A stretch of 64,000 bases of DNA from Oryzias latipes. Taxonomy: Eukaryota; Chordata; Actinopteri; Beloniformes; Adrianichthyidae. Of the stretch, positions 1,182 to 59,885 are shown in pieces (the stretch's first letter is position 1; the number at the start of each line of letters is the position of its first letter). The DNA is taken from the NCBI RefSeq assembly GCF_002234675.1, contig NC_019876.2:23169871-23233870 (forward strand), written 5' to 3'. A program made the position numbers and the translations under genes. The notes beneath the pieces are model-generated. The model saw nothing but the letters and a program-made list of their open reading frames with translations, was not told the origin of the DNA and made no database searches.

Positions 1182-1558
1182 TCCCTGTGTCTCCATGGTT
1201 TCCTGAACAATCTCAACATGAACACGCCCCCCAGCAGCAGCAGATCGTTTGAATTCTGCTTGTCCAGCAGCGGCCATGTTTACCTCTGGATCCATGCCGT
1301 GGTCTATTCTTGGTCCATCTTCATCCCGCTCTGGTTTCTCATGACTAACTTCTCCAGAATTTTCAGCTAACATCCCCGATGAAGACCCCCCCTTCTCTGT
1401 CAGGGGCGGAGGCTGTTGATCACAAAGGTGCAGCTCAGCATCTTCATCAGGAACGACCTCGGAGTTCTGTGAAAAACTCAGGAATGTTTGAAGGATCTGA
1501 CTTTTCAAACCCCAAAAAAGTTTTGCTCGTTCCTTTTATTCATCTGTAATAAAATATT

Positions 1559-6219: not shown

Positions 6220-6510
6220 GTTTAAACGTGTTTTCTGGAATACTCACCTGGAGAGAGCATTTTTTAATATTAAAAATGTTACACTAAAAATTAATTATTC
6301 CATTCCTTAGTTTCAAAGGATCCTTTTGATGCTTTTTTGTTGCTTTCTAAACTTTAAATCTGTGTGCTCCCACACTGACCTCTGCTGGAGAAGATGGGGT
6401 GGTGCAGCCGGAAGAGGCAGGAGGCTCCAAGCTGCTTCTGACTGTGATCTCCACAGGACCATCTTCCAGCTCCACAACATGCAGGGATCTTCTCAGGACT
6501 TCCTGCTGGT

Positions 6511-8237: not shown

Positions 8238-8936
8238 TGGTTCGGTTTCCCAGTTTTCCCTGTTTTCTGTTTTCATTTCCACTTTTCATCTCCATAAAAA
8301 AGTCTCTGAGCTACAAAGTTTCTGACCCAACGTGAAGAAAAGAAATACGACGGAAGATGTTTTTCACGTTTTTTTTTACAAGAGAATCAGATCAAATTCT
8401 ATTATAGCAGACAAACGACGAAGCATCCCCGCTCTAGTCCAAGAGAAAGTTTTCAGCCTTTAACATGTTAAATCTTTGTCACAGCAGCTGCAGGTTTTCC
8501 CTGCAGAATTCCTCAGTACCTTGTCTGTGTCTGAAGTGGATCCTGTAGATGTTTTGGCTCACGGCGGTCAGAGGTCCGCAGTCTCCTCCGCCAGATCTGC
8601 GCCTCACGCAGAAATAGCGCTGGACTTTCTTCCTGACTTCTTCCAGAGGTCTGGAACTCTCCAGGAAAACGGGATGCTGGTGGATGTCCTCCATGGTGGC
8701 AGAACAGCAGAGGAAACTCCTGGAAGGTTTGCAGCTCTGACTCTGATCAGCTAAAAACAAACACAAACAAAGAACCTGTGGGAGGAGCTTCCTGCCTGTC
8801 ACATCTAATGTTCCTCATTAGTGACGTGCAGTCAAAGTATAGCTTAAAGGTACATCCTTTCGTTTAAAATGGCAGAATGTCCAATAAGGTTTATAAAACA
8901 ACACACACTTTCATTTATGAAATAAATATATTAACA

Positions 8937-26839: not shown

Positions 26840-27487
26840 TCACAGCTGGTTTCGTTTCAGTGAATTGCTCTCAGTGTCTGGTTTTCTTCTGTGAACTGCT
26901 TGAAGCATGTCACTGGTGTAGTAGTCTCCATTGTTTGTCTCAACAATCTTGTCAATGGTGTTGAGCAGCTCCTTTATTTGGAAATGGTTGGTCCTGTATT
27001 CTTCCTGCTGGTTGTTATTCCAGTACTTGTTATCAACAACGTGGCACCAGCTGGAACACTTCTTCACCAGGTGATGGAGGGCTTAGCTTTTTCTGACAAA
27101 ATCCTCGATTGTAGTTTCTTCAGGCAGCTGGTCACCATGAGAGAAGACCACCACTGTGAATCTCAAAGCATCTTCTGAGAAGTATCCGATCATTTTCTCC
27201 ACAATAGCCTTTTCCTGGATGGTGTACTTGTCCACTTTGAGAACAATGAGGAACACGTGAGGACCAGGAGCACACTCAGTGATGCACCTCACAATCTCGC
27301 GCTTCATGTCCTCCTCTGGTCTGTTAGTGTCAAAGAAGCCTGGAGTGTCAAAAAGTATGACCCTTCTTTGATTCAATGACTTAGTTTCTGCTTTCCGTTT
27401 ACTTGTTCCAGCAAAATGGTGGACGTCCAACAGCTTCTCTCCAATGATGGTGTTGGCTAGGAGGGTCTTTCCAGCTCTTGTTTTCAA
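26840..27487 (-). pseudogene. GIMAP pseudogene (AIG1 GTPase with nonsense codon and lost 5' end)
   Basis: One frame on the minus strand encodes most of an AIG1 domain: [50 protein letters not shown] codon at 27085-27083, in the short stretch after FVRKS, interrupts it, and the same frame continues cleanly beyond. The P-loop is damaged: where GKTGAGKS is expected it reads LKTRAGKT, without the first glycine. Upstream of 27487 the family sequence (RIVLLG) stops. RTE-like LINE tail sequence lies a few tens of bases away. No 7-nt ATG exon was found. The low number of lesions suggests recent inactivation. Confidence 0.85.
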
Positions 27488-27499
27488 ATTTTTAGGAAT

Positions 27500-27640
27500 A
27501 CTGATGATACTGGTAAAAGGACGCTAAGGATGAAGCTACCAGAAAAAAGGTCTAGAGGAAGAGCGAAGAGAAGTCTCACGGATGATGAAGAGGAGGGAGA
27601 CGATTCACTGTGTCAACCCCTAAAGGATGTAGCTCAAAAA
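27500..27640 (+). mobile_element. RTE LINE 3'-end fragment next to the GIMAP pseudogene
   Basis: The run 'aagctaccag..gaggaagagcgaagag' and 'gacgattcactgtgtcaacc' parallels the last 160 bp of the intact RTE (59700-59865: 'gcctggcagg..aagaggacgg', 'gattcgctgtggcgaccc'). It is a diverged tail. Confidence 0.5.
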
Positions 27641-28950
27641 TAAACAAGAATAGAGTTTGATAGTTTCCTCACAAAAAATAAATATTCCAATTTGGACATA
27701 TTTGATACATCCTGTTGCAAACATTTAATATATTTTTATTCATCATATAAGCCTTTAAGGTGAAACGTTAGAACATGTAAATATAATAATGCAGCAAAAT
27801 CTTCAAATTTGATTTAGATTTTAACCTTTTATTTACTTCTCATTCTCTGTATTTCAGCTTCTTTCAGTTTAACTTCACATGTATCATTTAATCAATGTAT
27901 TAATAGTTTACCACGGATGTGTAACAGTCAGAAAAACTCCCGAAGTTGTCTTTAATGATCAATACATGTAGCTTTTGAGCTTAAACTGAAAAAAAGCTTC
28001 ATATACAAAAGAATCTGATCATCTAAAAGACTTTGTTGCAGACTGAACAATCTTTAGTTCACAAAGTTTTTAATATTTCTCACAGTCTCACTGTTGGTTT
28101 TCTTTTTTTTCAAAATTTCGGTGTTAGGCTTTTTTAAGGGGTTCATATCAGTAGTTGTACAATCTGAACAGAATCCTTTTACAGACTGACATCCAGACAT
28201 GATGCAGTCTGGGCGAGGCTCTATAAGGCCCAAAATTAGAATATAATAATTCTTATTTTCACTAATATGTAAAAAAAGTTATTTTTCTTTATTTTACAAT
28301 TGATATAGATTCAATTAAACTTGTATTTGATGAAATATTTTTTTTCAGAGAAAAATCAATAAGAAATTTGCAATTGATCTGAACCAAATTTTGGCAAAAT
28401 TTTATGGTATATAAAAAAAGAAAGAACTCAAAAGTTATTCTGTTTATATAAATAGTGATTCTCACTATATATATAGATATTCACTTCTTTTCACCCTTTT
28501 CTCAAGCAACAAATACAACTCTATTTGACTTTATCTGATAAAAATTATATTTAATTAGTTTAATATAATATGTGTGTGTTGTATACATTTGTCCAAATAA
28601 GGGAAGCCTATTAGAGTATTTACACTGACAAGTAGATTGCATCATCTTCAATCACTGTCAGTAATTTATTTATTTTGTATTCAGTGTATTACATAGTATC
28701 TGAAATGAGTTTAATGTATCTTTGTTCGTTTATATTTTTTTTAATAACAGGCTTCAAATGTTTAATGTTTGAGATCGATCCATCAATCAATAATTGAGCG
28801 CGTCTACAATTATGAGGGCTTTAAATTCATGAACTTGTTGCATAATTGATTGGCTCCTCCCACTGCACAGGTTGTGGTTTGTGTTTGTTTTTAGCTGATC
28901 AGAGTCGGAGCTGCAAACCTTCCAGGAGTTTCATCTGCTGTTCTGCCACC
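27641..28950. other. Intergenic region upstream of the RRM-macro-GIMAP gene
   Basis: AT-rich to about 28800. From about 28880 to the ATG the sequence matches the flank of the partial copy (8695-8770). Both contain TTTTTAGCTGATCAGAGTC, which may be the acceptor of a 5' UTR exon. No promoter could be fixed. Confidence 0.4.
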
Positions 28951-31736
28951 ATGGAGGACATCTACCAGCATCCCGTTTTCCTGGAAAGTTCCAGACCTCT
29001 AGAAGAAGTCAGGAAGACTAAGACAGTCCAGCGCTATTTCTGCGTGAGGCGCAGATCTGGCGGAGGAGACTGCGGACCTCTGACCGCCGTGAGCCAAAAC
29101 ATCTACAGGATCAACTTCAGACACAGACAAGGTACTGAGGAATTCTGCAGGGAAAACCTGCAGCTGCTGCAAAATAGATTTATATTAAACGCTGAAAACG
29201 TCCTCTTAGGAGATGCTTCAACATTTGTCTGCTGTAGAATTTGATCTGATTCTCTTATTAAAACATGAAAAACATTATTTGTAATTTTCCAGAGGTGGTC
29301 AGAACATTTTTAACTAAGAAATGTTTTTAGTTTTGACCGTAATTTACACATTTTTTTCCCCTTTTGGTTGAAAACTCAGAATGAAAACAGAAAGGAAAAC
29401 GAAACCTAACTGCTTCCGTCATTCCTGCGTCTGACGTCATGAGTGGGTGTGGCCTCCATGTCAGGAAGCTATCAGGGATTAGCCCAATTATTGAATATGG
29501 AGTAAGAAAACTGTCAATAAGAAACGTATGCATTAAAACAACGTAAAAAATGAATAAAACATTTAGTTTTACGTTTGACACATCCTGAATACGGCTCCCG
29601 CTGGTCTTGAATACGAAATAAGAGAAAAACGAAACATGAACAACTCTGCGGAGGGGATTCCCCTCTTCCTGCTGCCACGGCTCTCCAGTCTGGGGAACGA
29701 GGGATCCCCGCTTTTTTTTAAAAAAACTTTATCAATCACAGCGAGCCAATACAAAACAGTGGAAACGATAATAGGAAAAGAACAAGCAAGGGGGTGATTA
29801 TTACACGTTACACAAAGACATTGAAACTGACTGACGTGTTTTAATGCTTTCCTATTGAGTTCATGCATTGTTTGACCTCATTGACAAAGACAGAGAAAGA
29901 AATGAGAGGTATGATTTGAAAGATGTGCCATTTGCATAAAAGAATCTGAGATTAATTATGTATAACTGTTTTTTTTAATGAGATGGACAATGAGTGAGGC
30001 CAAACAGCACATGTTCTAAGCAAAGGCGGACGTTTGAGTCTGTGTGGGCGGAAATGAAATTAGAAACTTTAGACCAGATTTTAGTGGAAAAGGGAATGAC
30101 CAAAAGAAAAGTATGGCATCTTCAGGGTGTTCTTGACACAAAGAGCAGGTTACATCAATGTCTTTTTTGGAATCTTTGCAGATATAGTCTGGATGGGTAG
30201 AATTTATGGATTAATTTAAAGGAGATTTCTTGCACTTTATTGGTTAAAATATATTTTTGCTGAAATATTCTAGATTTGTTTCCACTCTAACAGGTAAACT
30301 AGATAATTCCATTAACGAACTACATAGGGAATGGACACGACATTCTGAAAAGGTTCATACAGCGATTTATATGACATGAAGAGGAGAAACTAAATTGGCC
30401 TATTTCTATTTTAGTCGGGTCAGTTGGTAATAAAGTTGGATTCTGCAATGAGGAGCTTTTGAATAACATACAAACACATTCAGGGATTGCTTTTAGGATC
30501 ATGTTAAACTCAGTTTGAGGTATTTGGATGCTGTATTTAAAGCAGAATTCTTCATGCATCATTAAAAATCCGTGTGAGTCAAACAGTTGATGAAGCAAAA
30601 GGATGTTTGAGTAAACCTAAGATGGATAGAATAAAGATTTATGTCTGCATGTAATGACTTTGTTATTCCATATGTATTATTCGTGTGGAGAAAAATTGGG
30701 ATTGCATACAAGTGACCAGGAGAAGAGCATTTGTTTCTGAAAGTTGGAAAGTTTCAGTGGGATCTTTTCCACTTTATAACTACAAAATAAAGTGAAATAA
30801 AATGTATGACTCCTAATTTGGAAAAAATATAATTTGGTATGAAATTCCAAATTGAAGTTGGACTCGTAGTAAAAATGTCTCAACCATTATTTTTAAGGTA
30901 TTATTTAATATACAAAAATTGAAAAAGTTAAAACCGCCCTTATCATAAACGTTTATTCTGTTTGTTTGTTTTTTTCCTATAATTTTTTTTTCCTCCAAAT
31001 CAAATTAAATAGCATTTTGTCAAGGATTCTTTAGAAATATATATGTATATATATATTTTTTGGTTATTTGTCTTTGCTGGCCTGCGATCTACCCTCATGT
31101 CCTTGAAGATCGGCCGGTCGATCACGATCGACGTAACCCTTGGAATAAATCAAGTGGTAATCTGATATCATTTGAGATCATTTGTCTATTTCTTATGAAG
31201 CCAGACTGAGTCTCATCAATTAGATGATCCAGAATATTTTTTATTCTTTCAGCAAAGATTAAGGCAAGTATTTTATAATTATTAAGTAGGCAGATTGGAC
31301 TCCAACTGTCTATGAGGAGTATGTCATTTTTAGGTTTGGGTATTAATGTTAGAAGGCCCTGGGTTAAAGTAGGAGGAAGGAAATAGTTGTCTAAGCTTTC
31401 CAAGAAGAGATGGAGGAGGAAAGGAGCAAGTTGTTTGGAGAATGTTTGGAAGAATTCAGAGGTCGTCCGAGGGATCCCCGCTTTGTCAGCCAGTTCATTT
31501 TCGGGATAGGCGGGGCGGGCGCGGCCACTCCAGCCCATGGACCTGTCCAGGTGTACCCTGCTTTTGCCCAACAGTAGCTGGGACAGGCTCCAGCAGCACC
31601 GTGACCCCGAAAGGGGAAATAGCGGGTTAAGAAAATGGATGGAAAATAGCAAAATCAAGAAAGTTAACTCAGAGCTAAAGTAGGATTAACTGATAGCCGA
31701 CTGTAGTGATAGTTAAAAAGAAAGAGACATTTTATT

Positions 31737-31788
<52 letters not shown>

Positions 31789-32970
31789 TTGGGTATTCTG
31801 ACTTTGTTATTTGATCTTTTTACTGCAGCAACAGTCAGCTGCCACATAGCCTACTTTAGCTCCGAGTCAGCTTAGCTGTTTTTGTTTTGGGATCCTCTTT
31901 TGACAGACATGGACCTTTTTAGTTTTTTACATCTAATACATAGAGTGGCATGTCAGGTAACGCTTTCTGGACTGTTTTCCACCACTTTTGAGTCTGAAAC
32001 TACCCACAGGTGCATTGTTTACAGTCCACAGCAGCTCCAGGTAATCAACAGCAGATAAGGCGGGGCTTCTGAAAAAGCAGCAGGAGGCCGGCCCTCCAGG
32101 CCTGGATTTGGGTGGTTTACACGATCAGCTGTTGACGCCCGGCACAGACCAAATCAGAAATACTGGTCAGACTGAAATGTTTTAGTTTGATTTGATCAAA
32201 ATAAATATGCAGAAGGATGTTGGAAAGATGACAACAGCTGTGCAAACCTTAAACTTTGTTATTAAAGTATTGACAGTTTTAAAAAGGAAATTCCTAATTC
32301 AGTGAAAGTTTTAGTCATCACCATATGAGAGCAAAATGTAATTCTCCTTCAGCGCTGTCACACGCCTCCTTCTGTTCTTCATGGTCTAGCATGTTCACTT
32401 GATAACAGCTCAGTCAGAAACAATAACCCAAAAAAGTCTTAAAAGTCCCAGTGAGACTATATTTGATCTATTTTGAAAGCATTCCCAGTGGTCTTTTATT
32501 AGGATTTTACAGTTTTAGCCAGAATCAAAAAGCTTGTGTCGTTCTTTGAGACGTATTTTCTGCAGAGCGGCTGGAGCTCATCAGAAATACGACTCTGGGA
32601 TGTGGGCGGGACTACTGGGGCAGAGGTAGCGTCCTGCTGATATCCCAGCATTCCTTTGTGTACACTCTCTCCCATTAGCTTACAGCCCCTCACAACCCCA
32701 AGCTAACATTAACGGAGCAAAAAAAATGGCGAGCAACATTAGAGGTAGGCATCCGTACAACTTTGAGCCAGATGGCAGCTCAGACGAGTAAAAAACAAAG
32801 ATGTTAGCGGATCAATTTACCTGCAAGTTGATGCATCCGAATGAATGGACGGAGCAGAGAGACTAAGGCCCGCCCATTGCAGTTGCTGTCATTGCGACTG
32901 CTTAAGGCCTTCCCAGGTTTGGATGGTTTAAGGATATCAAAAGTGGATGTGCCAATGGGAAAATAAAAAT

Positions 32971-33003
<33 letters not shown>

Positions 33004-36000
33004 GTCTGCATGAAGTTTCAAACCTTTTGCAAAAGGGAGAGCCAGGGGTGTCTATAGATTAGAAGAGATGCACTTCTTGTCTGTTCTGCTCTGGTGAAAA
33101 AGTATAATAAAATGTGTGATAATAAAATACGTCTTCATGCGACTCTGTGTCACAAACACAAACTTTTTAGATTTTTGTACATTCAAACTGCAGGATTTTA
33201 TCTGATCAATCATGATTTGAATAGGAAGAAACTCAGAAAAGCAGATTTAATCATACATTGTTTTATATATGTCCTCCATCATGAGAAAAATGCCAGAAGA
33301 ACATGTTAAAAACAAAAAAACACAATTTTTATTGGAGTTGGTCTCAAAGCCACACAACAGTCTGTCAGACTTTGTATAATTTTGTAGTACTTTTTAAAAT
33401 CCAGTTCAGTAAATGTTAAAATGTTGTTTATCGTCCCTCATATTGTGGTTCATGTTTTAAATCTTCTGTCTCAGACCAGCAGGAAGTCCTGAGAAGATCC
33501 CTGCATGTTGTGGAACTGGAAGATGGACCTGTTGAAATCAGAGTCAGAAGCAGCTTGGAGCCTCCCGCCTCCTCCAGCTGCACTACCCCATCGTCTCCAG
33601 CAGAGGTCAGTGTGGGAGCTTTATTAAAGTTATGGATTTGCATCTTTTTCTCAACGGCCTTTTTACCATTTACAAAGGAAAAGATTAATCCCCATTATAA
33701 CCATTTTAGGAACAAAAATACGAAATAAGGTGTTTAGATTCTAATACAAAACCAAACACAGATAAATGAGAAAAGTTGTGAGGTTTTAAAATTTCCCTGA
33801 AGTGTCTAAATCTGATCTGAAAGTTAGAGAAAATCTTATTTAAACTGGATTACATTGTCATTTTCTTCACAGAACTCCGACGTTGTTCCTGATGAAGATC
33901 AACAGCCTCGGTCACTGAAGGAAAACCAGTTTTCTGAGCCAGAGCTGGTCTCTGCGCGCTGCGCTTCACCTGAGACTTTAGCTGATTCTTCTGGTGAAGG
34001 TAGTCATGAGTGGGCCAAAGACTCTGAAGGGTCAGTGACCAGCTTTGAGGAAAGTCCAGACACAAAGGAGGCAGACCGGAGCACAGAGGAGTGTGGGGAC
34101 TTCAGCCCAGCAAGTCCTCCAGCACATGAAGACACATTTGCTTCGAGTTTGAGTGAAGCAAGCAGGATCCGACTCTGTGACACTGACACTGAGAAAAACA
34201 CGGATGCTGCTGGGGGGCGTGTCCATGTTCAGATAGTCCAGGGGAACATCGAGATGCAGAAGGTTGGATATTGTTTCATCTAACATGCTCAGTAGACATC
34301 GATTCCATGTTTTTTGTGAAAACTTGTGCTTTTCATCTTAAAGGTGCTTCTGCATTGGTTATGTTTGATCTTCAGGTTAAATGACAGGACTCATATTACA
34401 CTTTCTTTTTTATTCAAATTTAAAATTGTCCAGTTTATTTTTCAACTAAAAGTTGTTGTATCATTAACAGCAGTTTGCAGGCTCAGCACTGAGCCATGAA
34501 CAAACACTTGAACATCTTCCTCCACGTGTCCTGTTCTCCCCTCAGACAGATGCTGTGGTGTCTCCCATGGTCGGCCATCATCCTGTGTCTACTCGTCTTG
34601 GAAACATCCTAGAAAACATAGTTGGCTCTCGTCTGACTACAGCCTTCAGAGAAGTAGCAGCAGATGAAGGGATGCCAGGGGACTCTGTGCTGGTAGAGGG
34701 ACTGCCTGGACTTCCTTCTAAAGCTGTGTTCTTCACCCATCTTATTCCATGGGATGAAGATGAAGATGGACCTGCAGTTCAGGTGGGATCTTCTTTATGA
34801 AGAAGATCTAAATGTGAGAATTGGATCTGTCAAACAAACAAACTCATTGGGCTGTTTCTCTGTTCTCATCCTAAAAAAAATGAACTTTAACCGTCTTCAG
34901 GTTCTCAGGTTGGGGATCAACAACATCCTAACTTCCTGTGACGACAGAGGCTTCACATCCGTGGCTTTTCCTGCTCTTGGAGATGGGATTCTCCTGGGTT
35001 TTCCCATCAATTTGGTAGCAAGAGTTTTACTGGAGCAGCTTTATGAATTTGAACGTGAGCGAGCCAGCAGCACAGACCTCCAAGTTCATATTGTTCTTTT
35101 GCCTGAAAACAAGGAAGCTACAGAGGTGAGGACATCTGATTTGACTGCTTTTAGAGTTTAATAAACCATTTAAACTGTTTTTAGCTTTAGTGTCCAAATC
35201 CAGGTCTTGTAGGCAGGCCTTCTGCTGGTTTCCCAGAAAACCTGCCCTATTTGCTGCTGATTACCTTGATCAGGTGTGCTTAGCCAATAAGGGCCTTCAA
35301 TGGCAGGTTGGTTGGAAAATATGTGGGACTCTTGAGGCCTGGAATTGGACACCCCTGCTTAAGAGCATCATTTGACTTCAGATGATGCTGTAAAGTGCCG
35401 GTGTAATATGGTTCTGGCAACATTCAAGGGATGTTCTTAGACGGCCCAATCCTCAGTCATGGAATCTGGCTTTTCGGACATGGAATGTAGAGGTGTCTAA
35501 GCCTGAAATGGGTCTGAAAGGAGTCTAAGCTGCAGGAGATTGAGAGGTACTGGCTAGATCAGGTCTGGTCAACCTTTAGTCCTCCTGGAAGACTTTAACG
35601 CCTATGTGGGAAAGGTTTGTGCCATCTGAGAGAACGTGACTGGGAGGGATGGCCCCCCTGATTTGAACCCAAGTGGTGTTCTGTTGTTGGACTTTTGTGT
35701 TTGTCACAGTTTAATAAACATCATGTTTGAGCACAATGCTGTCCATTAGTGAACATGATACCAGGACACCCTGGGCAGAAGGTCAATGATCGATCTTGTA
35801 GTTATTTCAGATGAACTTCCACTGTCTGTTTTAGACAGTCTGGTAAAGAGAGGAGCCAGCTGTCCACCAATACCTACCTGGTGGTGAGTTGATCTCATGT
35901 TGGAGGAGGAGGAGGCTGGAAAGACTTGGCAGGGCCAAGCGCACTGTAAGGGATGCTGTCAAGATGAAGAAGGTTTTCTACTAAGCCTGGCTGACTTGTG

Positions 36001-37325
36001 AGACTGCTGAGGCAGCTGACAGGTACCATCAGTCCAAGGAAGCTGGGGGCCTATCGGTTGTAAAGGCAGAAACTTGGTCCTGGGAGAATTGAGGCCATGG
36101 TGAAAGACTATCGGTCCGGCTGTTAGCCACCACTGTTTCCAGAGCATGTTACACTCCGGCAGGGCCATCTTCTATCACAGGTTCTTTTCATGATCTTCCT
36201 GAACAGAATTTCTAGGCACAGCCAGGGGGCAGAGGGGGTTTGGTTTAGTAACCACAGAATCTCCAGTTTGCATTAGGACAGTTTTTGGACTGAGCAGGAA
36301 AAGGCTGGAATGAGGGTCAGGACCATCAAGTCTGCGACCATGGTGCAATGAAACGTGCCTGTAGTCATCGTAGCCCACATCAGTTCCACCTCATTGGGGA
36401 TTGATCCCCTTGACATTTGTTTAAACTCCTCCTCATTTCTGCAGGCCTTCACATCTGTGCAGGAAGATCTCAAATTCAAAGGTGAGTGTGGAAGTTCAAG
36501 ATAAAAACTAATTATTTTATAAATGTTGGAGCAGATCTTTACGATTAAGAGCCATTGAGAAAAACGTGAGATTATTGGGCTTAACAGTCATTCCCCTTCT
36601 CAGGATCAAGGAGGATCGTCCTGGTGGGAAAAACGGGATCAGGAAAAAGCCACTTGGCCAACACCATATTTGGAGAGGAGCTCTTCACTGCATATAATTC
36701 TGCCAACTCTGGAACAGTTTCATGTCAAGCTGAGACCAAATTCATCTACGGAGCAGACACCACTTTGGTGGACACCCCTGGTTTCTTTGACACAAAGCGA
36801 TCAGAGGATGAATTGAGGCCGGAGATCATCCGGTGTCTCGCAGAGTGCTCTCCTGGGCCCCATGCTTTTCTCATTGTGTTTAAAGTGGGCAAATTCACTA
36901 AGCAGGAGCAGGAAGTTGTTGATAAAATCTGCCATCTTTTTTCCAATGATCCATTGCAGCATGCTGTGATTGTTTTCACTCACGGTGACCAACTGCCTCC
37001 AGAGATGAAAATTGAAGAGTTTGTTGCGAAGCACAAGAATCTGAGCGATCTGGTACAGAAGTGTGGGGGTCGCTGTCTAGTTTTTGACAACAAACACTGG
37101 AACAACACACCGCCTGATCAATACAGGAGCAACCAGTTCCAGCTAAGGGCCCTACTCAAAACCATAGACAAGATGATGGCAGAAAAAAAAGGAGGCTACT
37201 ACACCGATGAAGTTTTACAGGAAGTAGAGAAAGAAATTCAGCAACAGGAAGAAGAATCAGCAACAAGCAACCCTGGTCCTGGGAGATTTTCTTGGATCTC
37301 CTCTTGGTTTCAAAGAAATCGTTAA
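28951..37325 (+). CDS. RRM - macro domain - GIMAP GTPase fusion protein (predicted, 7 exons)
   Basis: Predicted exons: 28951-29131, 33475-33605, 33873-34262, 34546-34782, 34901-35125, 36445-36481 and 36604-37325. All introns are GT/AG and the phases agree (1,0,0,0,0,1), giving 640 residues. The ATG sits in a strong Kozak context (GCCACCATGG). Residues 1-104 (HPVFLESSRPLEEV, YFCVRRRSGGGDCGPL) resemble the RRM of PARP10/14-type ADP-ribosyltransferases. An acidic Ser-rich linker of about 110 residues follows. A macro-like fold (VHVQIVQGNIE, DAVVSP, FPALGDG, GFPINLVARVLL) occupies about 217-388. It keeps the adenine-contact Asp but lacks the NAAN and Gly-rich loop residues. A complete AIG1 GTPase follows from about 401: GKTGSGKS, DTPGFF, THGD, CGGRCLVFDNKHW. 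The tail has no membrane helix. No PARP catalytic domain is present. Family knowledge suggests an interferon-linked immune protein; the joint function is inference. A transcript is needed to prove the join. Confidence 0.7.
29394..29406 (+). promoter_or_regulatory. ISRE in intron 1 of the fusion gene
   Basis: GGAAAACGAAACC, a perfect GAAANNGAAACY core, 443 bp after the ATG. It is identical to 8237-8225 in the inverted copy, while surrounding intron sequence has drifted. Confidence 0.55.
29990..31470 (-). mobile_element. Decayed L1-clade LINE (RT and C-terminal pieces)
   Basis: At 31470-31140 the minus strand reads an L1-type RT start: FFQTFSKQLAPFLLHLF, LTLIPKPKNDILLIDSW, SPICLLNNYKILALIFAERI, ETQSGFIRNRQMISNDIR. 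Further down (30170-30090) TCSLCQEHPEDAILFFWSF resembles the L1 C-terminal Cys-rich segment. The sequence between is broken. It lies in intron 1 of the fusion gene, antisense to it. Confidence 0.6.
31480..31650 (+). repeat. LINE/SINE 3'-tail fragment
   Basis: 'ggtgtaccctgcttttgccc', 'ggacaggctccagcagcacc' and 'gaaaatggatgga' form a tail very common in fish genomes. A related tail is at 52760-52860. Confidence 0.5.
31737..31788. repeat. (GAAA)n microsatellite
   Basis: About 13 units of GAAA. Confidence 0.95.
31789..33474. repeat. 3' part of fusion-gene intron 1, dispersed repeats
   Basis: 32660-32870 is a relative of 7750-7940. 32905-33040 is a relative of 18780-18880. A (CA)n run lies at 32976-33002. 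No extra exon was seen. Confidence 0.45.
35190..35352. mobile_element. Short MITE with GTGTCCAA termini
   Basis: The left end GTGTCCAAATCCAGGTC is the imperfect inverse of the right end GCCTGGAATTGGACAC. It is 163 bp long, non-coding, and lies in intron 5 of the fusion gene. Confidence 0.6.
35440..36140 (+). mobile_element. LINE endonuclease-domain fragment
   Basis: Broken plus-strand frames read EDFNAYVG-like text, then 'INIMFEHNAVH', YQDTLGRRSMI-like and VKRGAS-like strings. These are typical of the apurinic endonuclease part of fish LINEs. There are many stops. It lies in intron 5 of the fusion gene. Confidence 0.5.
36604..37325 (+). CDS. Last exon of the fusion gene: complete AIG1/GIMAP GTPase domain
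   Basis: This exon alone encodes the whole GTPase, as in the stand-alone GIMAPs. The exon before it (36445-36481, 12 codons plus 1 nt) ends AAAG|GTGAGT in the same phase as the 7-nt ATG exons of its neighbours but contains no ATG. The exon therefore has no start of its own nearby and appears to depend on the upstream RRM-macro exons. The fusion could have arisen when a macro-domain gene's last exon spliced into a neighbouring GIMAP exon. Confidence 0.85.
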
Positions 37326-43800: not shown

Positions 43801-46800
43801 ATGGTGTGCACTCCAGAGGAGGCTCTGGACCGCAGTCTGTCCAGCTGTTTAGCGTGGGCGGGCTGCAGGACTCAGGAGAACCGTGTCTCCTGGGAGAACT
43901 TTGTCTCTGAGCAGAGGGACGGTTTGTGAGGTGGCGGCCTTTGCCATACAGAAATGCCGCGCAGTCCTGAGAAACCATGCAAACAGTCATGTGAAGTTGT
44001 GTTACCAGTTGTGTTTAGTCAAAATAAAGGCTGATGTTATTTCCACATATTTACATGAAGCCGAGATGCACAGTGCGCCATTGCCCGCATCCACGGCTAA
44101 ATGATGTTGCCACGTATTAGCCTAATCCTAACCCTTCTTCCAGGTCCGTTTTCCCAAGAATAAAGCACTGGCAACACAGATTTAGAAAATTATGAGCAAA
44201 CAGGCCCTTAATATTCATAATGAAAGCAGATTTAGAAGATGTTCTGGCTCTATGCGGCAGCTTTTGTTTACAGCAGAACTTGTCATGACTCTAGCGAGGC
44301 TAACAGACCCAGACGCTGGAACCCGGAAGGAGGACAGGAGAAGAGTGAAAGTAGAAATGGATTTAATGTTTCAGGGAAATGCGCAGTCCTGTTGTGGCAG
44401 GGGATGGCGAGATCGACGACCCGTTTGCGATCTTGAAGACGAGTCTAGGAATCCTGTGACGGCTCCGGGCGAACCTTGGACGAGGCGGGTGATTCGGCTG
44501 TGGCCTGTGGCGTGGCTGGAGGTTCGGCTGTGGCTTGAGCTGAGGCCTGGAGTTCAGACGGCGTGCTGGAAGGAGGTAGGTTTTCTGGGGGTATCCTCCG
44601 CTTGGATGGAAGTAGATTTGGGCGTCCACTCGTGGGTTTAGATGATCCTGAAGACAAGACAAAGGTTCGTGAGGCGAGAGCAATAACATAGGGCGAGAAA
44701 CTATGATGACCAGACTAAGCACCATCAGGGGCAACGAACTGGCGATGAATGATGATCCTGGAGCTCCTTAAGTAGGTCTGGCAGGGTGATGAGTAGAGTG
44801 GACGCAGCTGGGAGCAATCAGAGGCCAAGCAGAGAGGAGAGGGGGAGGAGTCCGCCAGAGGCACCATGACAGTACCCCCCCCTCAACGACCGCCTCCAGG
44901 CGGTCCAGGACGGCGATCAGGATGAGCCCGGAAAAAATCCTCAACGAGGGACGGGTCCAGAATGAGAGAGCGGGATATCCATGACCGCTCCTCAGGACCA
45001 TAACCCTCCCAATCAACCAGGAACTGGTGCCCGCGACCCCGCCGCCGGATGTCCAGGACGCGGCTGACAGTGTAGGCAGGGGCGCCGTCGATGACCCGGG
45101 CGGGTGGTGGGGAAGCGGACGGCGGGCACAGAGGACTGTCCTGAACGGGCTTGATTTGAGAAACGTGAAACGAGGGGTGTACCTTGAGGGCTCGTGGGAG
45201 GCGTAGACGGACACAGGTGGGATTGATAATCCTCTCAATCGTGTAAGGACCAATGAAGCGAGGAGCCAGTTTCCGGGAGGTGGCCTGGATGGGGATATTT
45301 CGGGCGGAGAGCCATACCTTCTGTCCGGGCTGATAAACGGGTCCCACCACCCTGTGACGATTGGCGATGCGACAGTTGCCCTCCTTGGTGCGGAGGAGAG
45401 CCTCTGTGGTCTGGCGCCAGACTCGTTGACAACGCCGGAGGTGTTGTTGGACCGAGGGCACCGCCAAATCGAATTCCTGGGACGGAAACAGAGGTGGTGA
45501 GTACCCGAGAGCAGCCTCAAACGGTGACACCCCAATAGCAGAAGATGCGTGAGTATTGTGGGCGTATTCGATCCATACTATATACTGGGACCAGTCCTCA
45601 TTGTTTTGTGCCGCCAGGCAGCGCAAGGCTGCCTCCAGTTCCTGGTTGGCCCTCTCTGCCTGACCGTTGGACTGGGGGTGATAGCCGGAAGTGAGACTGA
45701 CCGTGGCCCCCAGGGCGGAGCAAAAAGCCTTCCAGACTTGGGAGACAAACTGGGGACCACGGTCAGACACAATGTCCAAGGGGATGCCATGGTGACGGAA
45801 CACCTGGTCTACCAGGACTTGAGTGGTTTCAGTGGCGGAAGGTAACTGGGCTAGAGGGACGAAATGAGCCATCTTGGAGAAACGGTCAATGATGGTGAGT
45901 ATGACGGTGTTGCCCGGTGAGGGAGGCAACCCGGTGACAAAGTCCAAGGCGATGTGAGACCATGGCCGGCTGGGGGTGAGAAGTGGTTGTAACAGACCAG
46001 CAGGAGCAGAATTGGAGGTCTTGGAGCGGGCGCAGGTGGTACACGCCGCCACATATTCGCGGACGTCCTTATCCATAGACGGCCAATAGAACCTCCTACG
46101 GAGGAGATGGAGAGTGCGCTGGACGCCGCCATGGCAGGACAGCCGGGAGGAATGACCCCAGGAGATAACGTCCGCCCTGAGGGAGGTGGGAACATAAAGA
46201 GTGCCTTGAGGACATGGGGCATGACCAGGTTCCTCACCTTGGGCTTGGAGAACTCGATTTTCGATGTCCCAGGTGAGAGCCCCGATTATGCACGTGGAGG
46301 GGACTATGGTGTTGGTGATGGTGTTTTCTGTGGTGCTGTACTTGCGGGATAATGCGTCTGGTTTGACGTTCCGGGTTCCTGGACGGTAGGTGATGGTGAA
46401 CCGGAACCTGTCAAAAAACAGACACCACCGGGCCTGGCGGGAGTTGAGTCTCTTGGCGGTCCTAAGGTATGCGAGATTTTTATGGTCTGTCCAGACGATA
46501 AACGGGTGCTCCGCCCCCTCCAGCCAGTGCCGCCACTCCTCCAGGGCCAATTTTATAGCCAGAAGTTCACGATTTCCCACGTCGTAGTTTTGTTCCGCCG
46601 TCGATAGCCTCTTGGAAAAGAAAGCACAGGGTTTGAGTTTTCCAGACGTGAGTTCCTTCTGAGACAGGACGGCGCCGACCCCCGAATCCGAGGCGTCGAC
46701 TTCCACGATGAATTGTCGTGTGGGATCCGGCTGAATGAGAATGGGAGCGGTGACAAATAGTTTCTTTAGACGGTCAAAGGCCTGTTGGGCTTCTGGGGTC

Positions 46801-49800
46801 CATTGAAATCTTTGATGGGTGGATGTGAGGCGAGTGAGGGGAGCAGCAATGCTACTATAGTTGCGGATAAAGCGTCTATAGAAATTAGCGAAACCCAGAA
46901 ATTGTTGGAGTTTCTTGCGGTTGATAGGGGGTTCCCAGGCGGATACGGCCTCGATTTTGGAGGGATCTGGTTTAATACGGCCTGCTTCAATGATATAGCC
47001 CAAGAACTGTACAGAATTGACATGAAATTCGCATTTCTCCGCCTTAACAAACAGCTGGTTTTCTAAGAGACGAGTGAGGACTTGACGGACGTGTTGTTCA
47101 TGCTGGGTGAGATTGTCAGAGTAAACGAGGATATCATCCAGATATACAAAAACGAAGCGATTAAGAAAATCCCTGAGGACGTCGTTGACCAGCCTTTGAA
47201 AGACTGCTGGGGCATTAGTCAACCCAAAAGGCATAACCAGATATTCGTAATGCCCTAGGGGTGTATTGAAAGCGGTCTTCCATTCATCCCCCTCCTTGAC
47301 CCGAACCAGATGGTAGGCATTACGAAGGTCCAGTTTCGAGAAAACATGAGCTCCTTGGACGGAGTCGAAAACAGAGGAGATTAGAGGCAGAGAATATTTA
47401 TCCTTTATAGTAATTAGGTTGAGTTCCCGGTAGTCAATGCAGGGGCGAAGAGATTTATCTTTCTTTTCAACAAAGAAAAAACCGGCCCCTACAGGGGATG
47501 ACGAGGGACGAATGTGACCCAAGGCTAACGCTTCCTGAATATAGCTTTCCATCGATATTTTCTCTGGCCCAGATAGATTGTAAAGGTGACCCTTAGGTAG
47601 CGTAGAACCTGGTAGCAGCTTGATTTCACAATCATAGGGGCGATGGGAAGGTAGGGCGCTAGCCTTAGATTTGCAAAAAACGTCACGGAGATCATGATAA
47701 CATGAGGGGATCTTATCCAGATTTATTTTACTGGGAGAGTCAACAGCGTGATGAAGCGTGGAAGGTAAAGCAGACGAGAGACAGTTAGCAGAACAATAAG
47801 GACTCCAGTTAATGATGTGTCCCAAACTCCAGTTAAATTGCGGGTTATGCAGTTTTAACCAAGAGTAACCTAGTACTATGGGGGTCTGAGTAGATTGAGT
47901 AATGAAGAATTGTATTACTTCCCTGTGGTTGCCAGAGGTGAGCAGTTGTACTGGTTTGGTTCGATGTGTAATCCTGGAGAGGTGCTGTCCTCCTAAGCCT
48001 GAGGCCTCGACAGGAGCTTCCAAAAGTTCTACGGGTAAACCAAGTTTAGATACCAGTCCATGATCAATCAGACTCTGTTCTGCTCCTGAGTCAATAAGGG
48101 CCCTAGAAGCATGAGTTTGCGTTTTCCAGCATAACCTGACAGGAATGTACAGGAAGCTTTGCTTCTCCTGAGAGTTGACGTTGCCCCCCCGCGACCTGTC
48201 CCTTAGCGGGGGGTTCGGAAGTTTAAACGCCGAGCGCACTGTGAAACAAAGTGTCCTTGACCACCACAATAAAAGCACGAACCTTCCTCTTTGCGCTTCT
48301 GTCGTTCTTCCGCAGAGAGTTTGGAGTGGCCAATCTGCATAGGTTCCTCCGATGGTTTGGGGCTGGTGAGAAAATCCATTCTGTGAGGTGGCAGCGCAGT
48401 GATGGTTGAAAGGCCTGGACTGTTGAGGTTTTTCTTTGGGGCCTGTTGGCGATCATGATGCCTTTCTCTGAGGCGAATGTCTGAACGGAGGGCCGCTGTA
48501 ACGAGATCTTCGAAGGAGTTAGCTTCAGGCTGAGTACAGAGATGATCTTTTATAGTTTCGTTCAATGATTGATAAAATATGCCTTTTAGAGCCAGATCGG
48601 GCCAGCCTGCTTCAACCGCCAGGATGCGGAAGTCAATAACGTGTTCGCTAACCGTTCGGTTGCGTTGTTTAAGATTCAGAAGTTTTCGTGTAGCTTCCTC
48701 CCGTTTACGGGGCTGATCAAAAATTAGACGGAATTCATTCAGGAAGTGTTCGTAGCGGAGATGCGTGATAGGGTTGGCAGACACAAAAGCCTGAGCCCAC
48801 TGTAAAGCTTTGTTCCGGAGTGAGTTAATTATAAGGGTGATTTTACTGTGATCGGAGTGATAGTACCTGGGAGCCTGCTGGAATATGAGTTGGCATTGGA
48901 GTAAGAAGCCGCCACAAGCTTCTACGTCCCCCAGGAATGGTTCAGGCTGTAACCGGAAGTTTTCGGGTGGGTTGGCGGAACCGGAAGAGGAAGCTGCAAT
49001 GTTGCCGGAAGAAAGCACGGAAGATCCTGTAGCGGAATTAGCAGAGTGACCGGTTAGTTCCAGGAGTGTTTGGGTCAAACCGTCTAAGCGGCGAAATAAG
49101 TCCTGCTGCGCCGAAGCCATTTGGGTAAGGGCATCTGCTTGGCGTCCTAACATAATCCCTTGTTGAGTTACGGCGAGGCGGAGTCCCTCCGGGTCAGCTG
49201 GGTCAGGCGTCGGGCCAGTTCGTTCTGTCATGACTCTAGCGAGGCTAACAGACCCAGACGCTGGAACCCGGAAGGAGGACAGGAGAAGAGTGAAAGTAGA
49301 AATGGATTTAATGTTTCAGGGAAATGCGCAGTCCTGTTGTGGCAGGGGATGGCGAGATCGACGACCCGTTTGCGATCTTGAAGACGAGTCTAGGAATCCT
49401 GTGACGGCTCCGGGCGAACCTTGGACGAGGCGGGTGATTCGGCTGTGGCCTGTGGCGTGGCTGGAGGTTCGGCTGTGGCTTGAGCTGAGGCCTGGAGTTC
49501 AGACGGCGTGCTGGAAGGAGGTAGGTTTTCTGGGGGTATCCTCCGCTTGGATGGAAGTAGATTTGGGCGTCCACTCGTGGGTTTAGATGATCCTGAAGAC
49601 AAGACAAAGGTTCGTGAGGCGAGAGCAATAACATAGGGCGAGAAACTATGATGACCAGACTAAGCACCATCAGGGGCAACGAACTGGCGATGAATGATGA
49701 TCCTGGAGCTCCTTAAGTAGGTCTGGCAGGGTGATGAGTAGAGTGGACGCAGCTGGGAGCAATCAGAGGCCAAGCAGAGAGGAGAGGGGGAGGAGTCCGC

Positions 49801-56755: not shown

Positions 56756-59700
56756 ATCTAGCCACAGGGGTTGCAAGCCAGTAACTTCTGTGCCGGTCCC
56801 AAGCCCGGATAAATAGAGAGGGTTGCGTCAGGAAGGGCATCCGGCGTAAAAATTGCCAAAATAACCATGCGAATCATCCACAACACTTTAGACATACCGG
56901 ATCGGTCGAGGCCCGGGTTAACAACGACCGCCACCGATGCTGTTAACCTACAGGGTGTCGGTGGAAATTTGACTACTGTTGGTGGAAGAAAGAGGGGAGG
57001 CAGAAGGGTCCGTGGCCAGAGAGAGAAGGGAAAAGGCAGGAACATAGGTTTGAGAATAGGGACTCTTAACGTTGGCACAATGACAGGGAAAGGCAGAGAG
57101 CTGGCAGACATGATGGAGAGAAGGAAGGTAGATGTACTGTGTGTGCAGGAGACAAGGTGGAAGGGCAGCAAGGCACGTAGTATTGGAGGAGGATACAAAC
57201 TGTTCTATCATGGTGTTGATAGGAAGAGAAACGGGGTAGGAGTGATTCTGAAGGGGGAGTTTGTAAACAGTGTTCTAGAGGTGAAAAGACTCTCAGACAG
57301 GATGATGAGCCTAAAGTTAGAAATTGAAGGGGTGATGGTGAATGTAGTCAGTGGGTATGCGCCACAGGTTGGCTGTGAGTTAGAAGTGAAGGAGAGATTC
57401 TGGAGTGAGTTGGATGAGGTCATAGAGAGTTTTCCCAGAGGAGAGAGAGTTGTTATTGGAGCAGACTTTAATGGGCATGTTGGTGAGGGCAACAGAGGTG
57501 ATGAGGAGGTGATGGGCAGGTTTGGTGTGAAGGAAAGGAATCTGGAGGGACAGATGGTGGTGGACTTTGCGAAGAGGATGGAAATGGCTGTAGTCAACAC
57601 TTACTTCCAGAAGAGAGAGGAACATAGAGTGACATACAGAAGTGGAGGTAGGAGTACTCAGGTGGACTACATCCTATGTAGACGAGGTCATTTGAGAGAG
57701 GTTAATGACTGCAAAGTGGTGGTAGGAGAGAGTGTAGCCAGACAGCACCGCATGGTGGTGTGTAAGATGACTCTGGAGGTCAGGAAGAAGAAGAGAGGGA
57801 AAACAGAAAAGAAGACCAAGTGGTGGAAGCTACAGAATGAAGAAACTTGTGAGGAATTTAGGCAGAAGTTGAGGCAGGTCCTGGGTGGTCAGGATGAGCT
57901 TCCAGAGGACTGGGAAACTACAGCAGAAACTATCAGGGAAACAGGTAGGAAGGTGCTAGGTGTGTCATCTGGAAAGAGGAAAGACGGTAAAGAGACTTGG
58001 TGGTGGAATGAGGAAGTACAGGAATGCGTCCATAGGAAGAGGTTGGCTAAAAGGAAGTGGGATGTAGAAAGGACTGAGGAAGGTAGACAGGAGTACAAGG
58101 AAGCGCAGCGTAGAGTGAAGAGAGAGGTGGCAAAGGCCAAACAGAAAGCTTACGATGAGCTATATGACAGGTTAGACACAAAGGAAGGAGAGAAGGACTT
58201 GTACAGGCTAGCCAGACAGAGAGACAGAGATGGGAAGGACGTGCAACAGATAAGGGTGATTAAGGACAGAGATGGAAAGGTGCTAACAACCCAAGAGAGT
58301 GTACAGAAAAGATGGAATGAGTATTTTGAGGAGCTGATGAACGAGGAAAATGACAGGGAAAGAAGGGAGGAAGATGTGGTTGTTGTGGAGCAGGAAGTAG
58401 CAGAGATTGGAAAGGATGAGGTTAGGAAGGCTCTGAAAAGGATGAAGAGCGGAAAGGCCGTTGGTCCTGATGACGTACCTGTGGAGGTATGGAAGTGCCT
58501 AGGAGAGACAGCAGTGGAATTTCTAACAAGGTTGTTCAATAGGATTTTAGAGAGTGAGAAGATGCCTGAGGAATGGAGGAGAAGCGTTCTGGTCCCGATC
58601 CTTAAGAACAAGGGTGACACGCAGAACTGCAGCAACTATAGAGGAATAAAGTTGATGAGCCACACAATGAAGCTGTGGGAAAGAGTAGTGGAAGCCAGGC
58701 TTAGGAAGAAGGTGGAGATTTGTGAGCAGCAGTATGGTTTCATGCCCCGTAAGAGCACCACTGATGCCATTTTTGCTTTGAGAATGTTGATGGAAAAGTA
58801 CAGAGAAGGTCAGAAGGAGCTGCATTGTGTGTTCGTAGATTTAGAGAAGGCGTATGACAGGGTGCCGAGGGAGGAGCTGTGGTACTGTATGAGGTCGTCT
58901 GGAGTGGCAGAGAAGTATGTCAGAGTAGTTCAGGACATGTATGAGAGAAGTATGACGGTGGTGAGATGTGCTGTAGGTCAGACAGAGGAGTTCAAGGTGG
59001 AGGTGGGACTACACCAAGGATCAGCTTTGAGTCCTTTTTTGTTTGCTATGCTGATGGACAGGCTGACAGACGAGGTAAGACAGGAATCTCCCTGGACAAT
59101 GATGTTTGCGGATGACATTGTAATTTGCAGTGAGAGTAGAGAGCAGGTGGAGGAACAGCTAGAGAGGTGGAGGTTTGCTCTGGAAAGAAGAGGCATGAAG
59201 GTCAGTCGTAGTAAGACAGAATACATGTGTCTGAACGAGAGGGATCAAGGTAGAAGCGTTAGGTTACAGGGGGCTGAGGTGAAGAAGGTGCAGGAGTTTA
59301 AGTACTTGGGGTCTACAGTTCAGTGTGATGGGGAGTGTGGAAAAGAGGTGAAGAGGCGAGTGCAGGCAGGTTGGAGCGGTTGGAGGAAAGTGTCAGGAGT
59401 GTTGTGTGACGGAAGAGTGCCAGCAAGACTCAAAGGAAAGGTGTACAAGACAGTGGTGAGACCAGCTCTGCTCTATGGGTTAGAGACGGTAGCAGTGAGA
59501 CAGAGACAAGAGGCTGAGATGGAGGTAGCGGAGATGAAGATGTTGAGGTTCTCCTTAGGAGTGACCAGGTTAGACAGGATAAGGAACGAGTACATCAGAG
59601 GGACGGCTCATGTTGCCTGTATTAGCGGCAAAGTCAGAGAAGCCAGACTGAGATGGTTTGGACATGTTCAGAGGAGGGATAGTGGATATATTGGTAGAAG

Positions 59701-59885
59701 GATGTTGGAGATGGAGCTGCCTGGCAGGAGGGCAAGAGGACGGCCAAAGAGGAGATACATGGATGTCTTAACAGAGGACATGAAGTTGGCTAATGTTAGG
59801 GTAGAAGATGTCCATGATAGAGTGAGGTGGAAAAGGATGATTCGCTGTGGCGACCCCTGATGGGAAAAGCCGAAAGAGAAAGAAG
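56756..59885 (+). mobile_element. Full-length RTE-clade LINE with 16-bp target duplication
   Basis: Flanked by AATGAGGTTACAGGGA at 56740-56755 and 59886-59901. The 5' end carries 'ggaagggcatccggcgtaaa', typical of fish RTE leaders. The 3' end is 'ggcgacccctgatgggaaaa' with a short A/G-rich tail and no long poly-A. One intact ORF fills it. It looks recently active. Confidence 0.88.
56867..59860 (+). CDS. RTE retrotransposon ORF2-type protein (endonuclease + reverse transcriptase)
   Basis: 997 residues, uninterrupted. The N-terminal apurinic endonuclease has LRIGTLNVGTM (about 62), QETRWKG (about 94), GADFNGHVG and the SDHR-equivalent ARQHRMVV. The RT has GPDDVPVEVWKCLG, NYRGIKLMS, DLEKAYDRVPR, LHQGSALSPFLFAMLMD and the catalytic FADD at about 746. 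It ends in a Cys/His-poor C-terminus (GRPKRRYMDVLTEDMK). The protein nicks target DNA and primes reverse transcription there. Such ORFs are often annotated in fish as craniofacial development protein 2-like, which is a transposon artefact. Confidence 0.9.
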   Translation: MRIIHNTLDIPDRSRPGLTTTATDAVNLQGVGGNLTTVGGRKRGGRRVRGQREKGKGRNIGLRIGTLNVGTMTGKGRELADMMERRKVDVLCVQETRWKGSKARSIGGGYKLFYHGVDRKRNGVGVILKGEFVNSVLEVKRLSDRMMSLKLEIEGVMVNVVSGYAPQVGCELEVKERFWSELDEVIESFPRGERVVIGADFNGHVGEGNRGDEEVMGRFGVKERNLEGQMVVDFAKRMEMAVVNTYFQKREEHRVTYRSGGRSTQVDYILCRRGHLREVNDCKVVVGESVARQHRMVVCKMTLEVRKKKRGKTEKKTKWWKLQNEETCEEFRQKLRQVLGGQDELPEDWETTAETIRETGRKVLGVSSGKRKDGKETWWWNEEVQECVHRKRLAKRKWDVERTEEGRQEYKEAQRRVKREVAKAKQKAYDELYDRLDTKEGEKDLYRLARQRDRDGKDVQQIRVIKDRDGKVLTTQESVQKRWNEYFEELMNEENDRERREEDVVVVEQEVAEIGKDEVRKALKRMKSGKAVGPDDVPVEVWKCLGETAVEFLTRLFNRILESEKMPEEWRRSVLVPILKNKGDTQNCSNYRGIKLMSHTMKLWERVVEARLRKKVEICEQQYGFMPRKSTTDAIFALRMLMEKYREGQKELHCVFVDLEKAYDRVPREELWYCMRSSGVAEKYVRVVQDMYERSMTVVRCAVGQTEEFKVEVGLHQGSALSPFLFAMLMDRLTDEVRQESPWTMMFADDIVICSESREQVEEQLERWRFALERRGMKVSRSKTEYMCLNERDQGRSVRLQGAEVKKVQEFKYLGSTVQCDGECGKEVKRRVQAGWSGWRKVSGVLCDGRVPARLKGKVYKTVVRPALLYGLETVAVRQRQEAEMEVAEMKMLRFSLGVTRLDRIRNEYIRGTAHVACISGKVREARLRWFGHVQRRDSGYIGRRMLEMELPGRRARGRPKRRYMDVLTEDMKLANVRVEDVHDRVRWKRMIRCGDP

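Follow-up and report, generated by a model that had tools for sequence, protein, structure and literature searches.

Gene structure and predicted product

The window analysed here is a stretch of 64,000 nucleotides from the medaka Oryzias latipes (C18:23,169,871-23,233,870). It carries a gene, LOC105357483, whose predicted product places a PARP14-type RRM and a macrodomain in front of a complete AIG1 GTPase of the GIMAP family. This gene, copy A below, has an inverted sister gene, copy B, at the left edge of the window. PARP14 (macro-PARP, ARTD8/BAL2), which is linked to interferon responses, acts as writer, reader and eraser of ADP-ribose. The GIMAPs are immune GTPases, some of them on membranes. 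Copy A has the following exons.

28951..29131, plus strand: exon 1, which holds the start codon and the beginning of the PARP14-type RRM, residues 1-61
33475..33605, plus strand: exon 2, second part of the RRM, residues 61-104
33873..34262, plus strand: exon 3, a linker predicted to be disordered and the first strand of the macro, residues 105-234 (predicted local distance difference test score, pLDDT, below 50 at 92-185 and 187-217)
34546..34782, plus strand: exon 4, first half of macro2, residues 235-313
34901..35125, plus strand: exon 5, second half of macro2, residues 314-388
36445..36481, plus strand: exon 6, final helix of macro2 and the linker leading to the GTPase, residues 389-401; corresponds to the linker of PARP14 in other fishes
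36604..37325, plus strand: exon 7, AIG1/GIMAP GTPase with a short, aromatic C-terminal end, residues 401-640

Spliced together, the seven exons give 1,923 nt and a stop-free product of 640 residues, and all introns are GT/AG. The translation is identical to the NCBI Oryzias latipes LOC105357483 (100% across all 640 residues), and the seven-exon, single-frame gene of the original prediction is thereby reproduced. A hidden Markov model check of the translation agreed with its domains. The Pfam families RRM_PARP14_1 (residues 23-85, 37.8 bits against a cut-off of 27), Macro (255-355, 27.9 against 22) and AIG1 (403-617, 182.2 against 27) all scored above their cut-offs, the first of them bearing out the PARP10/14 type proposed for the RRM. 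The Pfam ADP-ribosyltransferase (ART) domain PF00644 had no match in the 640-residue protein. We regard the RRM-macro-AIG1 architecture as almost certainly correct.

The GTPase exon comes without a separate start exon. Exon 6, of 37 nt, lacks an ATG and the intron that follows it (36481/36604) is 122 nt long, so the GTPase exon relies on the exons upstream, as had been claimed. If exon 5 stays unspliced, the reading frame ends at a stop codon that overlaps an AATAAA at 35160. Thus, a truncated RRM-macro isoform is also possible from the medaka gene.

The AlphaFold2 model, run on an alignment of 90 sequences, is confident in the RRM and the macro, moderately confident in the GTPase and disordered at about residues 92-217 of the medaka protein. 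The macro has a pLDDT of 79-96 per block of ten residues and target TM-scores of 0.76-0.84 to macroH2A and PARP9 macro2. A helix at 384-398 closes the macro fold and takes up the greater part of exon 6 (389-401). The first strand of the GTPase runs from 403. Foldseek matched the model to GIMAP7, GIMAP2, macroH2A1.1 and PARP9 macro2.

Like GIMAP7 and GIMAP2, the fusion has a complete AIG1 domain (37-38% identity to GIMAP7 in the fold comparison), the G motifs, with GKTGSGKS (G1) and DTPG (G3) both intact, and the C-terminal helices. Unlike them, its AIG1 domain is preceded by an RRM and macro2. Macrodomain 2 of PARP9 is among the closest solved macros, along with those of macroH2A1.1 and PARP14, and has a similar IVQGxIExQ stretch, but it belongs to PARP9, without a GTPase.

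The fusion in other fishes

Relatives were collected by two protein searches, the second with the two macros of a barramundi (Lates) relative, P0031, as the query. The best 120 of 316 hits and the best 120 of 386 hits together gave 220 listed proteins, counting that of the query. In 90 of the first 120, AIG1 comes after a macro (P0014, which is AIG1-macro-AIG1, was left out of this count), and the orders RRM-macro-macro-AIG1 and RRM-macro-AIG1 occur in 26 and 37. Among the 220 listed proteins, 130 have both macro and AIG1, 159 have AIG1 and 50 have ART, while ART and AIG1 meet in none of them. The recurrence in other fish proteins that the original prediction had raised was thus found in many percomorphs among the listed matches. 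Judged from these sequences, the fusion is common to many percomorph (spiny-rayed) fishes.

It may be asked whether two neighbour genes, one RRM-macro and the other GIMAP, were merged by gene predictors. Nearly all relatives, the NCBI and UniRef entries included, are gene predictions, mostly named uncharacterized, hypothetical or PARP14-like, and this counts against a real fusion. Some listed models may also be odd joins, such as P0045 (AIG1-AIG1-RRM), and the AATAAA downstream of exon 5 would suit a merger. However, the linker is conserved: that of medaka is AFTSVQEDLKFKG, and the motif F..(V/A/I)Q is present in 97/131 listed proteins ending macro-AIG1. Copy B retains the linker exon without the macro exons, and the intron before the GTPase exon is as short as given above.

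Moreover, P0060 (979 residues) and P0112 (543 residues), both with the source label lgn, are continuous over the macro-AIG1 junction on contigs not exceeding 4,568 and 1,889 bases, respectively. Because these short-contig reading frames are unbroken where the medaka gene has introns, they look like assembled spliced RNA, which suggests that both proteins derive from it. On linker conservation, the linker exon in copy B and the short-contig frames together, we reject a gene-finder artefact. The fusion would hardly be such an accident, and a merger of neighbours is extremely improbable.

Probable origin from PARP14

The medaka PARP14 gene at C18:18.80-18.81 Mb carries RRM, macro and ART exons. 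It resembles the fusion in its first RRM, in macro2 and in four intron positions and phases, some acceptors being picked by eye. One common intron lies inside the RRM (phase 1, after exon 1 of copy A). The other three, of phase 0, precede macro2, interrupt it after SVQ/AVQ and precede its last helix. The longer fish fusions share most of the PARP14 front half. In contrast to PARP14, the fusion is without macro3 and the ADP-ribosyltransferase and has an AIG1 GTPase.

The macro search with P0031 returned fusions and ART-bearing PARP14-like proteins, often from the same species. We chose 28 same-species pairs of them by eye from the listed matches (12 + 16); a further Lates pair, compared along with the first 12, did not set a fusion against an ART protein and is not counted. 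In all 28, the fusion matches PARP14 in the same order, the shorter fusions being without part of the KH-like middle. For 27 pairs, the match stops within 15 residues upstream or 6 residues downstream of the point where AIG1 begins. In the remaining pair, Seriola dumerili, it runs on to 38 residues past that point. Past this end, PARP14 continues into its ART half and the fusion into AIG1. The identity is 63-76% over 997-1,015 aligned positions in five long pairs (Trachinotus, Epinephelus, Centropristis, Sebastes and Plectropomus), and some first pieces are weaker (Cololabis 33%, Acanthochromis 45%).

In the twelve pairs with linkers compared, the likeness continues through the linker and ends at the GTPase, as in Sander (KGFTKNVHQPDQVS vs GGFTNDANPDQAS). 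This likeness up to the GTPase, followed by ART in the one protein and AIG1 in the other, points to a PARP14 duplicate with its writer half exchanged for a GIMAP GTPase. Such an exchange is very probably how the fusion arose, as far as sequence comparison can tell. The fusion and PARP14 contigs are equal in size in 23/28 pairs (sizes are not given for both in Labrus and Scatophagus), which suggests that the two genes lie on one chromosome.

Exon 6 had been likened to the start exons of GIMAP genes. We reject this origin, as the linkers of other fishes align with PARP14 (e.g. KGFT..PDQ.S; the medaka exon is shorter) and the intron before the last macro2 helix is shared. Exon 6 is most likely the PARP14-derived exon for that helix and the linker.

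In an ancestor of the percomorphs, a PARP14 duplicate would have lost all after macro2 (macro3 through the ADP-ribosyltransferase) and gained a GIMAP exon, spliced on via the phase-1 intron before it. The simplest history would be that recombination in an intron put the GIMAP exon in place of everything past macro2.

For the trees of macro1-macro2, 76 of the 220 proteins were hand-chosen for a quick tree, and a careful tree of 72 rows was made with two gadids (branch 1.54), Synchiropus and Knipowitschia dropped. The fusion and PARP14 labels are strongly clustered in both, and a tree constrained to place the 42 fusion rows in a single clade is not rejected (approximately unbiased test, p-AU 0.577). 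In the AIG1 tree, for which three of the five medaka GIMAP loci were too short to be included, 25/29 fusion domains form one group (approximate likelihood-ratio support, SH-aLRT, of 87). This group also holds Odontesthes P0014_2, labelled plain but following a macro. Capture of the GTPase from the neighbour GIMAPs of the window is not supported, as these are 49-52% identical and the Oryzias fusion AIG1 domains fall together with full support.

Some results weigh against a single fusion clade and against one chromosome for both genes. The labels change four times in the quick tree and twice in the careful tree, and a one-change topology occurs in 12% of 200 bootstrap trees of the latter. The Betta fusion P0187 pairs with the Betta PARP14 P0166 in the macro1-macro2 tree, a pattern that gene conversion would give. 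Four of the 29 fusion AIG1 domains lie outside the main group. Finally, three of the 28 pairs (Eleginops, Scomber scombrus and Stegastes) are on contigs of different size.

Two further groups of sequences stood out. P0183 and P0196 of the moray Gymnothorax javanicus are 73% and 70% identical to the barramundi fusion macros, and P0183 falls among the percomorph fusions in the AIG1 tree, by contamination, mislabelling or something odder. The cod-family P0122 and P0123 have an RRM with five or four macros and neither ART nor AIG1.

Motifs kept and lost

In the long fish forms, macro1 has eraser motifs, macro2 is of the reader type and a hydrophobic tail is present. Among the 76 relatives with a usable macro1, GDI is kept in 75 and VNxAN in 71. 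Medaka copy A consists of RRM, macro2 and GTPase, without tandem macrodomains, macro1 or tail. Its macro lacks the hydrolase motifs GD(I/V) and VNxAN and reads GNIE and VSPM.

The sensing role of the original prediction is a putative one. The retained macro is of the macro2 reader type, Asn replaces the Asp of the GD motif and VNxxN is absent, and hence hydrolysis of ADP-ribose marks by medaka macro2 is unlikely. The ART siblings are mostly like the fusions, with Thr after the GD-type Gly in 39/50.

In the GTPase, G1 is kept in 124 and DTPG in 128 of the 131 fusions. A tail of more than 100 residues follows it in 116/131 relatives, and all 116 contain a 19-mer with a Kyte-Doolittle mean of at least 1.6. 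Unlike these fish relatives, medaka copy A has lost the hydrophobic tail. Together with its Oryzias counterparts P0002 and P0004, it has a C-terminus of only 21-25 residues, with F and W.

The inverted sister gene

Copy B consists of these parts.

8520..8694, minus strand: exon 1 (RRM) of copy B, the inverted paralogue
6380..6510, minus strand: exon 2 (RRM)
1185..1472, minus strand: exon 3 remnant with the first macro strand
C18:23168227-23169440 (locus L014 2227-3440), left of the window: exon 6, GTPase and hydrophobic tail

The macro exons 4 and 5 were not found in copy B. It once had a macro, because its linker exon and the first strand of the macro are still there. Exons 1, 2, 6 and 7 give an open frame for a 468-residue RRM-AIG1-tail product, close to the UniRef medaka entry P0027 (RRM-AIG1, 469 residues). 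The DNA of the two copies aligns in the surroundings of exons 1, 2 and 6-7, with one short additional match in opposite orientation. Their synonymous divergence (dS) is 0.16 in the RRM and 0.19 in the AIG1 core. The ratio of nonsynonymous to synonymous divergence (dN/dS) is 0.14 in the RRM, 0.34 in the AIG1 core and 0.38 in the whole of exons 6-7.

The losses are complementary, copy A being with macro and without tail and copy B with tail and without macro. As their G domains are closely related, A and B could form mixed assemblies. In these, B could anchor and A could read.

Other features of the window

Besides the two copies, the window holds these features.

26849-27484, minus strand: GIMAP exon interrupted by an in-frame stop and lacking the start of the P-loop in that frame, likely a pseudogene
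44186-49712, minus strand: retroelement frames (370 and 1189 residues) with near-identical flanks about 4.9 kb apart, near the GIMAP cluster; the near-identical stretches are likely long terminal repeats of a Ty3-type element
56813-59860, plus strand: open frame of 1015 residues, resembling the endonuclease and reverse transcriptase of a long interspersed nuclear element

Discussion

In human PARP14, macro1 erases and macro2 and macro3 bind, according to passages of two reports (PMC10470015, PMC10221186), and GIMAPs form dimers and scaffolds, according to passages of a review (PMC8201404). By analogy, GTP-dependent dimerisation is predicted for the fusion AIG1 domain. We lean towards a shortened PARP14-front/GIMAP fusion that would be a GTP-switched scaffold steered to ADP-ribosylated targets.

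The corresponding reader-scaffold mechanism has about an even chance of being right. RRM and macro2 would bind an ADP-ribosylated protein or RNA, or PARP14/PARP9-type partners, with the RRM helping macro2 to recognise ADP-ribosylated targets. The GTP-bound AIG1 domains would dimerise as in other GIMAPs. In most fishes, the assembly would be tethered to a membrane by the hydrophobic tail, and macro1 could remove the mark; in medaka the anchoring would be supplied by copy B. More doubtful is an extension in which an ADP-ribosylated ligand on the PARP14-derived half triggers GTP loading and membrane assembly of the GIMAP half, medaka having split it into a soluble reader A and a membrane-anchored B.

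Several observations speak against the reader-scaffold mechanism. The macro2 residue after the GD-type Gly is Asn in medaka and Thr in 87/130 fusions, and VSPMV stands in place of VNxxN in medaka. Since the Asp and VNxxN are lost, ADP-ribose binding by medaka macro2 can only be predicted. In macro1, GG(V/I/L)A is kept in 53/76 and the loop-2 SSG(V/I/L)(F/Y) in only 29/76. The Arg in the GRYT stretch of GIMAP7 has a catalytic role, and medaka has Lys at its position, unlike GIMAP7. A search of 26900-29131 for an interferon element of the form GAAANNGAAA gave no match.

The main rival is a real fusion that lost macro ligand binding and uses RRM-macro2 as protein docking surfaces, as in PARP14/PARP9/DTX3L-type partners, to place the GIMAP GTPase. 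It agrees with the replacement of the ligand-pocket Asp and Asn and with copy B, which is entirely without macro yet under constraint. However, the loop-2 glycines of macro2, P.(L/I)G.G, are kept in 123/131, and the structure of PARP9 macro2, which has GHIE at this position, is solved in complex with NAD+ (9qyh). We consider this docking reading rather unlikely.

As the front half is shared and the writer is missing, the fusion could also compete for PARP14 targets and partners as a dominant-negative or decoy. The high identity of the five long pairs to same-species PARP14 and the presence of both proteins in 28 species pairs favour such competition, but the medaka copy lost most of the front half (the KH-like region and macro1) and the conserved GTPase is left unexplained, and we hold it improbable. 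Still less probable is a nucleic-acid sensor whose RRM would bind viral RNA beside a vestigial macro, although the RRM is complete, confidently modelled, kept in both medaka copies and the part with the low dN/dS between them. Steering of a GTP-switched scaffold to ADP-ribosylated targets is the reading we retain.

Extra PARP14 copies are present in many fish genomes, as described in passages of Daugherty et al. (2014, PMC4038475), and the ART-bearing sibling gene is probably one of them. The words GTPase and AIG1 are absent from the main text of that paper, and fish and GTPase from a PARP14 review (PMC13224862). A PARP14-GIMAP fusion is not named in passages of the GIMAP review. We found no description of the fusion in open-access full texts, the subscription literature being mostly outside this search and long result lists covered in part. 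PARP14 and GIMAP are not connected in the open-access papers found.

A writer seemingly swapped for a GIMAP GTPase, and kept so by many fishes, suggests that both systems act in one pathway. The fusion is a natural construct for testing what GIMAP scaffolds recognise, and medaka is a standard laboratory fish. If true, a GTPase gated by ADP-ribosylation would be a new kind of immune switch in the spiny-rayed fishes.

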